DNA of 56,399 bases from a virus: positions 1 to 56,399 of IMG/VR virus record IMGVR_UViG_3300005329_000004, one strand, 5' to 3'. The notes beneath the pieces are model-generated. The model saw nothing but the letters and a program-made list of their open reading frames with translations, was not told the DNA's origin and ran no database searches. Shown piece after piece: positions 21,020 to 24,016 of this stretch. Each line of letters starts with the position of its first letter. The first letter of the stretch is position 1. A program made the position numbers and the translations under genes.

Positions 21020-21283
21020 ATGCCATCACGAAAGACTGAACTCAAGCCAGTGATCGCATACGCACGGGAAGCCGTCCTCGACGCCACGCAACTCGGCGCG
21101 GCGCTCGGCGTGTCGGCGGCGACCGTCGAGCGCATGGACTTGCCGTTCTTCCGCGCTGGCAATCGCGTGCGCTACATCTATGGGCAGGTGTTGGACGTCC
21201 TCGCGGAACGCGCGAAGGCGATGGGCGCACCCGTGCCGGCGCTCGCCTTTTCGGCTCGGCGGAAGCAGAGGACCGCGTCATGA
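21020..21283 (+). CDS. xis: Excisionase-like HTH protein
   Basis: 87 residues. VLDATQLGAALGVSAATVER then FFRAGNRVRYIYGQVLDVLA is a MerR/Xis-type winged helix (HTH_17 group): recognition helix plus wing with Arg residues. It starts at the base after the ATPase stop and overlaps the integrase by ATGA. Small, basic, and coupled to int, it is the best candidate recombination directionality factor. Some members of this fold instead act as simple repressors. Confidence 0.65.
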   Translation: MPSRKTELKPVIAYAREAVLDATQLGAALGVSAATVERMDLPFFRAGNRVRYIYGQVLDVLAERAKAMGAPVPALAFSARRKQRTAS

Positions 21284-22338
21284 CGCCCGATACGCTGGAC
21301 ATCGACCTCCAATTCCAAGGCGTGGGCCGGATCAATCGACGGAGCGGCACGACGGATCCGAAAGTCGTGAAGCGCATCAAGGCGGCTGCGCGCGCGCTCT
21401 ATCGCGATGGCCGGCTGGATCTCCTGCGCGCGGTGCGCGACAAGCACATCTCGTGGCTCGAGCTCTACGACGCGTACCAGCGTCACACGTTGGCCGCGCT
21501 GCCCGTCGGCAACACTGTTCAAAAAGTCTCGACGGCGATGCGCGCCTGGATCGACGACGCGGCCGATCGCTATTCCGAGAAGCACGCGATTTCGCTCGGC
21601 ACGTCGCTTGGGTATCTCGAGGCCGCGGACGCTGACGCGCGCATCGCTGACTTGCCGCGTGTGCTCGACTCGCTTCGAATGACGCTCGGTCGAAAGCATC
21701 CGCGATCGTTCAATCTGTGCCGATCGGCGGCCCTCGCGTTCGCCCGTTCGACGCTCAAGCGCAATCATCCCGTCTATCTGGCGTGCGCGGCCGTTGAGCC
21801 GGTGAAGGTCGTCAAGCGTGCGCCGCGGCATCCGATCACGCTCACGAGGATGCGCGAACTCTTCCCAAACGCGAGCGGATCCAACGCATACGCGATCGAT
21901 CAGATCGCCTGGTCGATGGCGACGACCGGCATGGGACTCAAAGACTATTGGGGACCGTGGGAGATTCGGCGCGACCGGATCCACATCTTCGGAACGAAGC
22001 GCGCCGGTCGCGATCGCGACGTGCCACTCGTCCGTCGACCCGATGCGCCGCCGCTCTCACGTGATCGATTCGAGAAGGCGTTTCGGAAACGCTTCTCGAC
22101 CGTCATGACGCCGTACCAGCTCCGGCGCACATACGCGCAGTGGATGGAAGAGGCGGGTATCCCGCGAACGCGTAGGCTTCTGTATATGGGCCACGGCACA
22201 CGCGACGTCACCGATCTCTACGAGCGGTATCAAATCGAGGAGTATCTCGCCGCTGATGCTGCCAAGCTGCGCGTCTTCTTGTCGCCGCCAAAGAAATCCA
22301 GCGCACGCAAACCGTCACCCGCGATCAAACTCGCATGA
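21280..22338 (+). CDS. int: Tyrosine-recombinase integrase, divergent catalytic set
   Basis: 352 residues. The C-terminal domain follows the integrase order: TTGMGLKDYW at the box I site, HIFGTKRAGRDRDVPL (beta-hairpin Lys), TPYQLRRTYAQWMEEAG (box II), LLYMGHGTRDVTDLYERY with the nucleophile Tyr. Two usual residues differ: box I has Gly where Arg is expected (a Lys follows two residues later), and box II has Tyr instead of the first His. I recall related phage integrases with the same pattern. attP lies about 105 bases downstream, with xis upstream, a standard integration module. Confidence 0.8.
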   Translation: MTPDTLDIDLQFQGVGRINRRSGTTDPKVVKRIKAAARALYRDGRLDLLRAVRDKHISWLELYDAYQRHTLAALPVGNTVQKVSTAMRAWIDDAADRYSEKHAISLGTSLGYLEAADADARIADLPRVLDSLRMTLGRKHPRSFNLCRSAALAFARSTLKRNHPVYLACAAVEPVKVVKRAPRHPITLTRMRELFPNASGSNAYAIDQIAWSMATTGMGLKDYWGPWEIRRDRIHIFGTKRAGRDRDVPLVRRPDAPPLSRDRFEKAFRKRFSTVMTPYQLRRTYAQWMEEAGIPRTRRLLYMGHGTRDVTDLYERYQIEEYLAADAAKLRVFLSPPKKSSARKPSPAIKLA

Positions 22339-22368
22339 GATATTTTTTGAGCGAATTTTCGATGACTT

Positions 22369-22386
22369 CCCCGAGAAAGTCCCCGA
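22369..22386 (+). repeat. Candidate integrase arm site, left
   Basis: CCCCGAGAAAGTCCCCGA, two CCCCGA units 12 bases apart. A near copy lies at 22560-22577 on the other side of the tRNA-derived core, as expected for arm-type binding sites. Confidence 0.5.
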
Positions 22387-22442
22387 CCGCGACTGCGCTG
22401 GCGATGTGTGGCCGTGCGCGTAAGTCGTTGTCACGTAATAAG

Positions 22443-22489
22443 TGCGCCCAGAGGGACTCGAACCCCCAACCTTCTGATCCGAAGTCGGA
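22443..22489 (-). other. attP: attP core: 3' half of a tRNA-Arg(TCG) gene
   Basis: On the minus strand this stretch is the 3' part of a tRNA: anticodon loop CTTCGGA (anticodon TCG), 3' anticodon stem TCAGA, variable loop AGGTT, T stem and loop GGGGG-TTCGAGT-CCCTC, acceptor strand TGGGCGC and discriminator A. No 5' half exists; the last five bases (TCCGA) pair imperfectly, so host identity probably ends near 22486. Phages that integrate at tRNA 3' ends carry just such a fragment to restore the gene. It lies next to int, between paired CCCCGA repeats. Confidence 0.85.
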
Positions 22490-22559
22490 ATTTCGCCGCG
22501 GCGCGGTAGCATCAAAGGAGCAGAACTCCAGCTGCAGCGCGCACAACTCGCGCAGCCGA

Positions 22560-22577
22560 CCCCGAGTTAGTCCCCGA
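22560..22577 (+). repeat. Candidate integrase arm site, right
   Basis: CCCCGAGTTAGTCCCCGA, 16 of 18 bases equal to the copy at 22369-22386 and in the same orientation. The core lies between the two. Confidence 0.5.
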
Positions 22578-22587
22578 GTTTTTCACG

Positions 22588-22614
22588 CCACGATCACACG
22601 GCGTGTGATCGTGG
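22588..22614. promoter_or_regulatory. 27-bp palindrome upstream of helicase gene
   Basis: Perfect 12-base arms CCACGATCACAC and GTGTGATCGTGG around a 3-base centre, 16 bases before the start at 22631. No run of T follows on either strand, so an operator for a dimeric regulator, or a hairpin acting on translation, is more likely than a simple terminator. Confidence 0.55.
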
Positions 22615-22630
22615 GTCGTCGGCGGTCCGC

Positions 22631-24016
22631 ATGACCGGCCTCTCGTACGCCGGCTTCCTCGAGCGGAAGTCGCAACTCGGAACGTTCGACGGGTTCGCGC
22701 CGCGCTCGCTGCCCTCGTTCTTATTCGATTTCCAGGCCGATCTCGTCGCATGGGCGCTCAGGAAGGCCCGCGCTGGCATCTTCGCCGATTGCGGCCTCGG
22801 CAAATCGCCGATGCTGCTCGCGTGGTCGAACGCCGTCGTCGAGCGCGAGAACAAATCGGTCCTGGTGCTCTCGCCGCTGGCCGTCGCGGCTCAGCTCCAG
22901 CGCGAAGCGCAGAAGTTTGGCATCGACGCGGTTCGCTCGAGCGACGGACGGACCCCCGCCCGGCCGACGATCGTCCTTACCAACTACGAACGACTGCACC
23001 ACTTCAACGCCGACGATTTCGCGGGCGTGGTGTGCGACGAATCGAGTATCCTGAAATCGTTCGACGGCGTGCGCCGGAGCGACATCACGGCGTTCATGCG
23101 CAAGCGAAAGTATCGGCTCTTGTGCACGGCCACTGCGGCCCCGAACGACTACGTCGAACTCGGCACCTCGAGCGAAGCGTTGGGCGAGCTCGGATATGTC
23201 GATGTCTTGAATCGGTTCTTCAAAAACGATCTCAATAATTCGGCGACAGGCCGCGGCTACCTCGGGACCAAGAACGCATGGCGCTTCAAGGGCCACGCTG
23301 AGGAACCGTTTTGGCGTTGGGTCGCCTCGTGGGCGCGTGCGCTGCGGCGGCCATCCGATTTGGGATTCGACGACGATCGATTCATTCTGCCGCCGCTCGA
23401 GGAAGTCGAGCACGTCGTGAGCGCGCTGACGTTGCGTGAGGGCGAGCTCTTCGCGCTTCCGGCGGCCGATCTCCATGAGCAGCGTGAAGAACGTCGTCGC
23501 ACAATCGGCGAGCGGTGCGAGAAAGTCGCGTCGCTCGTGGCCGACACCGGCAAGCCCGCGCTTGTCTGGTGTCATCTGAACGACGAAGGCGATTGTCTCG
23601 AGCGATTGATCGCCGGTGCGGTTCAGGTGTCGGGGTCGGATTCTGACGATGAGAAGGAAGCAAAGCTGCTCGCGTTCGCCGCTGGCGAATCACGCGTGCT
23701 CGTGACCAAGCCCAAGATCGGCGCGTGGGGCTTGAACTTCCAGCACTGCGCGCACGTCACCTGTTTTCCGTCGCATTCGTTCGAGCAGTACTACCAGGCC
23801 GTTCGTCGCTGTTGGCGATTTGGCCAGCGCAACCCTGTTCGCGTCGACGTCGTCACGACTGAGGGCGAGCGGGGCGTCACGGCCAACGTGCAACGCAAAG
23901 CGCGCCAGGCCGACGAGATGTTCGACGCGCTCGTGCGGCACATGCGAGACGCGACGACGATCGCGCGCCGGCGGCCCACCTCGACGCAATTCGCCGAGGT
24001 GCCGTCATGGCTGTAG
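22631..24016 (+). CDS. SNF2/DEAD-type helicase
   Basis: 461 residues. Walker A is in FADCGLGKSPM (residues 51-61), the DEAD-box equivalent is VVCDESS (133-139), motif III is LLCTATAAPND, and the C-terminal half has PALVWCHLNDEGD, VLVTKPKIGAWGLNF and the motif VI region QYYQAVRRCWRFGQ. This is the SNF2-like group often found in phages. It overlaps the methyltransferase gene by ten bases. It may open or remodel DNA during replication or modification. Confidence 0.8.
   Translation: MTGLSYAGFLERKSQLGTFDGFAPRSLPSFLFDFQADLVAWALRKARAGIFADCGLGKSPMLLAWSNAVVERENKSVLVLSPLAVAAQLQREAQKFGIDAVRSSDGRTPARPTIVLTNYERLHHFNADDFAGVVCDESSILKSFDGVRRSDITAFMRKRKYRLLCTATAAPNDYVELGTSSEALGELGYVDVLNRFFKNDLNNSATGRGYLGTKNAWRFKGHAEEPFWRWVASWARALRRPSDLGFDDDRFILPPLEEVEHVVSALTLREGELFALPAADLHEQREERRRTIGERCEKVASLVADTGKPALVWCHLNDEGDCLERLIAGAVQVSGSDSDDEKEAKLLAFAAGESRVLVTKPKIGAWGLNFQHCAHVTCFPSHSFEQYYQAVRRCWRFGQRNPVRVDVVTTEGERGVTANVQRKARQADEMFDALVRHMRDATTIARRRPTSTQFAEVPSWL

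Follow-up and report, generated by a model that had tools for sequence, protein, structure and literature searches.

Positions 22369–22577 of the virus record IMGVR_UViG_3300005329_000004, whose 56,399 bases are the window analysed here, very probably form a phage attachment site (attP) that recombines with a host tRNA-Arg(TCG) gene by means of the adjoining integrase gene int (21280–22338). The owner of the site is most likely a temperate tailed phage from soil that is known from metagenomes, and a large terminase and tail proteins are found among the structural genes of the window. The region including attP is 100 % identical in two other metagenome contigs from two other samples, over 11,953 and 7,775 bases, so the virus is a recurring one that carries an intact site. 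The attP is located in the interval between int and a helicase-like gene starting at 22631 (22339–22630), with 104 bp separating the 3' end of int from the attP core.

This core consists of the 3' half of a tRNA-Arg on the minus strand, with the anticodon loop at one end and the discriminator at the other (22443–22486, 44 bases). Read on the minus strand, GACTTCGGATCAGAAGGTTGGGGGTTCGAGTCCCTCTGGGCGCA comprises, in this order, the end of the anticodon-stem 5' strand, the loop, the stem 3' strand, the variable loop, the T arm, the acceptor 3' strand and the discriminator A, and its loop CTTCGGA places TCG at positions 34–36. ARAGORN detected no whole tRNA and no phage tRNA gene in the window, and the Rfam tRNA model matches 22443–22499 weakly with 23.4 bits (gathering threshold 29, E=0.013). 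In BLAST searches, the core aligns to complete tRNA-Arg genes such as that on a Corynebacterium diphtheriae plasmid (44/48), and in silico chimeras of the core with the tRNA-Arg 5' half from four sources were recognized by ARAGORN as complete tRNA-Arg(TCG). A previous sequence-only reading had described a tRNA-Arg 3' half on the minus strand at 22443–22489, which our analysis bears out. Strict identity of the anticodon arm to the tRNAs of two IMG/VR contigs, L016 and L017, stops at 22486, but as 22487–22489 match with one mismatch, the earlier boundary is acceptable as well.

On both sides of the core we find a unit of two CCCCGA elements spaced 12 bp apart on the plus strand, the left one at 22369–22386 (elements at 22369–22374 and 22381–22386; CCCCGAGAAAGTCCCCGA) and the right one at 22560–22577 (22560–22565 and 22572–22577; CCCCGAGTTAGTCCCCGA). 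The two units are identical in 16 of 18 bases, as had been noted before, and the pattern CCCCGA-N6-CCCCGA occurs in the whole 56-kb window at 22369 and 22560 only, which makes the spacing unique to the two flanks of the core. Single CCCCGA elements are not enriched in the window, with 35 copies found versus 42 expected. Of 600 simulated flank pairs, 1 gave a best 18-mer match of 16/18 or higher; for real segments of the window the rate was about 1.7 %, which counts somewhat against the site. The double pairing inside each unit renders a chance match less likely still. Measured to the midpoint of the anticodon loop (22478–22484), the centres of the left and right CCCCGA pairs are approximately 104 and 88 bp away; judging from their sequence and placement, the pairs represent putative arm-type sites of the integrase.

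The anticodon loop itself is bordered by an imperfect inverted repeat, TTCTGA/TCGGAA. On the plus strand, TTCTGA at 22472–22477, in the anticodon stem 3' strand, and TCGGAA at 22485–22490, its inverted copy with 5/6 identical bases, are candidate core-type integrase sites, and the seven bases TCCGAAG between them (22478–22484) would be the overlap region for strand exchange. Integration may thus be pictured as follows: the arm-binding part of Int would occupy the CCCCGA pairs on both sides, while its core-binding part would contact the core sites of the anticodon stem. Strand exchange with the host tRNA-Arg(TCG) gene would then take place in the 7-bp anticodon loop, and the phage copy would take the place of the host tRNA 3' half, so that an intact tRNA would be rebuilt at the int-proximal junction with its 3' end toward int. 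In actinophages, a core of 30–45 bp holding a tRNA 3' half that rebuilds the tRNA, flanked by pairs of putative arm sites, is the norm, as is crossover near the anticodon loop, and mycobacteriophage attachment sites commonly have the crossover in the loop itself (PMC10865867). The site fixes the expected place of integration and provides a concrete tRNA-Arg(TCG) to seek in host genomes. We also considered tRNA-dependent lysogeny, characterized by a short, non-rebuilding core and a phage tRNA gene, and rejected it because the 44-bp core is long enough to rebuild the tRNA and the window is devoid of tRNA genes.

The layout of a tyrosine integrase attP, with tRNA core, arm-type sites and adjoining int, had already been proposed from the sequence alone and gains its best support from an independent relative, IMGVR_UViG_3300037483_000243 (G001), which we found by scanning for the motif TGM[GR]..[DE]YWG. 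Its integrase is 34 % identical to int (E=9e-51) and matches PHROG_1 with E=1.2e-10. Directly downstream of the G001 integrase gene, and in the same orientation as in the window, lies TGCGCCCTGAGGGACTCGAACCCCCAACCACCAGATCCGAAGTC, a tRNA-Arg-like 3' half with TCG. The sequence GATCCGAAGTC around the overlap, and with it the 7-bp loop, is identical in the window and G001. In the left arm, GATGACTTCCCCGAGAAAGTCCCCGACCG of the window aligns with GATGACTCCCCCAATCCGTCCCCCATCG of G001; the distance to the tRNA end is nearly equal, and in both viruses the first and second sites are 12 bp apart. This alignment, with P ~0.03 if its position is not used, is suggestive only; for another short match adjoining the tRNA end, P is ~0.01. 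G001 resembles the window in its homologous integrase, two catalytic changes described below, the tRNA-Arg(TCG) 3' half, the orientation and the left-arm sites. It differs in that its left sites read GTCCCCCA and are joined by a third copy, where the window has two CCCCGA, and in that its right arm features GGTCCGA repeats instead of paired CCCCGA; the right arms do not align, and G001 has no clear counterpart of the right unit. When 7–8 window proteins other than int were compared with 16 kb surrounding the G001 site, none gave a match.

Related tRNA-Arg 3' halves near int are also found in known phages. Mycobacterium phage Angel (BPs group, cluster G) carries a tRNA-Arg 3' half core that is 94.6 % identical over 37 bp, with a tyrosine integrase gene adjoining. 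The Angel core is part of the repressor gene, its tRNA 3' end facing away from int, whereas the core is noncoding and faces toward int in the window, and the Angel integrase shares 18 % identity with int. By analogy to the integration-dependent immunity of mycobacteriophages, the attP might be part of a real gene, ORF 22335–22634, that is switched by integration. This ORF overlaps both int and the helicase gene by ATGA and is free of stops, Angel and Typha carry the same tRNA 3' half within their repressor genes, and an ORF of G001 likewise spans from the int stop through attP. Its codon score of −0.19 compared to a gene median of 0.29, its low third-position GC bias, its frame through the core, which is unlike that of G001, and the lack of a family match nevertheless render this explanation extremely unlikely. 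We rejected a coding ORF across attP on codon statistics and frame, and integration-dependent immunity with attP in a repressor gene because the ORF is not coding-like and matches no family.

The gene int (plus strand) encodes a divergent tyrosine integrase of 352 aa that matches PHROG_1 with E=9.8e-6. Its score against Pfam PF00589 is 14.1 bits, below the cut-off of 27.1, and searches of 50,697 phage and 72,556 plasmid records returned no match; by sequence homology the protein is a tyrosine recombinase remote from described families. In an alignment of five integrases, comprising int, those of G001 and L017 and two mycobacteriophage integrases, the ArgI position of int is occupied by Gly219 (TGMG), which is equally Gly in G001, and the motif around it in both proteins is TGMGLK[DE]YWG. 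The His of HxxR is replaced by Tyr279 in int (YQLR) and by Tyr in G001 as well (YDLR). Neither replacement had been noted in the sequence-only reading. Retained in both viruses are the Lys, ArgII, the second His and the Tyr nucleophile, which in int are Lys240, Arg282, His305 and Tyr314, with R282, H305 and Y314 being invariant in all five integrases. AlphaFold models of int and the G001 integrase are of low confidence (pLDDT 39 and 42).

As ArgI and the HxxR His are absent, the activity of int is not assured, and the tRNA fragment, real in itself, could mark a former or decoy attP left dead by an inactivated integrase. The presence of Gly219 and Tyr279 where Arg and His are canonical, together with the Pfam score below cut-off, would fit such a dead site. 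However, both substitutions are retained in the 34 %-identical integrase of G001, which likewise has a tRNA-Arg 3' half at its side, codon use in int is gene-like, the Lys, ArgII, second His and Tyr residues persist, and the integrase of CTnDOT is active with a displaced Arg (PMC8138268), so we consider a dead site very unlikely. That two distant integrases have kept both substitutions beside matching sites argues, on the basis of sequence comparison, for function.

Altered active sites of a similar kind are described for IntCTnDOT, which uses a displaced Arg, and for the IntDes subgroup, in which the Arg is shifted and Tyr replaces the first His (PMC8138268). As in int, the first Arg of the RKHRH pentad is missing or shifted in both, and IntDes shares with int the Tyr for the first His. 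This likeness concerns active-site residues; the two subgroups differ from the phage-borne int in belonging to Bacteroidetes elements and Desulfovibrio proteins (PMC8138268). It is slightly less likely than not that int and the G001 integrase belong to an undescribed tyrosine integrase subgroup whose target is tRNA-Arg(TCG) and whose altered active site, with Gly at ArgI and Tyr at the HxxR His, is functional. In such enzymes another Arg would perhaps replace ArgI, candidates being the conserved Arg residues in DR[IV] and in R[DE]R, close to the catalytic Lys. The novelty may reside in the integrase as a candidate new subgroup, while the attP itself is of a known, ordinary kind. With two viruses whose 34 %-identical integrases both lack canonical ArgI and whose attP sites match, a functional test on the natural substrate is possible. 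A functional integrase devoid of ArgI, if true, would add to the case of CTnDOT and make a site-specific integrase available that acts on a tRNA gene of uncultured bacteria.

The integrase of L017 (12300–13445), which adjoins a complete tRNA-Arg(TCG), is 19 % identical to int and lacks ArgI (AGVGQAE) as well as the HxxR His, which is replaced by Arg (TQRGLR). A search for its relatives recovered itself alone, and a second att copy was not found in the L017 contig. The contig L006, from the first integrase scan, was discarded since there was no integrase among its ORFs.

Regarding the target, the closest annotated complete tRNAs, which stem from plasmid records, are tRNA-Arg(ACG). One variant of our explanation, not exclusive of it, is that the attP is real and targets tRNA-Arg(ACG), the common form, with a phage mismatch, T at position 34, through which insertion changes the anticodon to TCG. 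All nearest annotated complete tRNAs examined do have ACG, yet G001 has TCG as well, L016 and L017 each end in a complete tRNA-Arg(TCG) gene whose anticodon arm equals that of the core, and a mismatch in the overlap is as a rule strongly deleterious (PMC10865867). We therefore consider this variant unlikely; the anticodon TCG, as assigned by the sequence-only reading, is supported by G001 and by the genes in L016 and L017, the latter of which indicate that TCG is likely genuine and not a phage mismatch. In L016, a virus contig of 43 kb that also holds a Mu GemA-like gene, the complete tRNA-Arg(TCG) is terminal and occupies positions 27–102. A literature search on bacterial tRNA-Arg(UCG) outside Mollicutes returned nothing relevant.

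The direct handle on the host that the tRNA core had been expected to give did not materialize. Exact 45-bp and 36-bp core patterns, both of them strict, gave no match in the genomes of 84,980 bacterial and archaeal species, and no prophage junction, attB or host was found; the relatives of the integrase come from metagenomic virus contigs. The absence of a bacterium with a matching tRNA 3' end had been named beforehand as a result that would speak against the site, and in a technical sense this is what was found, albeit with these strict patterns. The core is similar to tRNA-Arg of actinobacteria and Clostridioides, which does not suffice to name the host phylum. The site at 22369–22577 nonetheless remains, in our reading, an attP for tRNA-Arg(TCG).

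The surroundings of int and attP offer further candidates for regulatory functions. Upstream, an 87-aa ORF on the plus strand (21020–21283) overlaps int by ATGA and is coding-like in composition; profile searches gave no family match. As the gene at the equivalent place in G001 also overlaps the int start by 4 bases and contains an HTH_17 domain, the 87-aa ORF is a candidate excisionase. A perfect 13-bp inverted repeat, CCACGATCACACG/CGTGTGATCGTGG (22588–22614), follows the right arm ahead of the helicase gene and is a possible operator. The helicase-like protein (22631–24016) has 395 relatives in virus contigs, the best outside its own virus being 62–69 % identical, and nothing in the 78 loci of helicase relatives examined, own virus excluded, matched int, the 87-aa ORF or ORF99.

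In the G001 attP, a perfect parS-type sequence, TGTTCCACGTGAAACA, lies a few bases from the tRNA 3' end (L103, G001:C1:20066–20081) and is the sole one in its contig; the equivalent place in the window reads GTTGTCACGTAATAAG only, and a literature search on parS in attP returned nothing relevant. The G001 ORF extending from the int stop across attP (L103 7358–8146, minus strand) encodes 262 aa and ends in a MUG113/T5orf172 domain.
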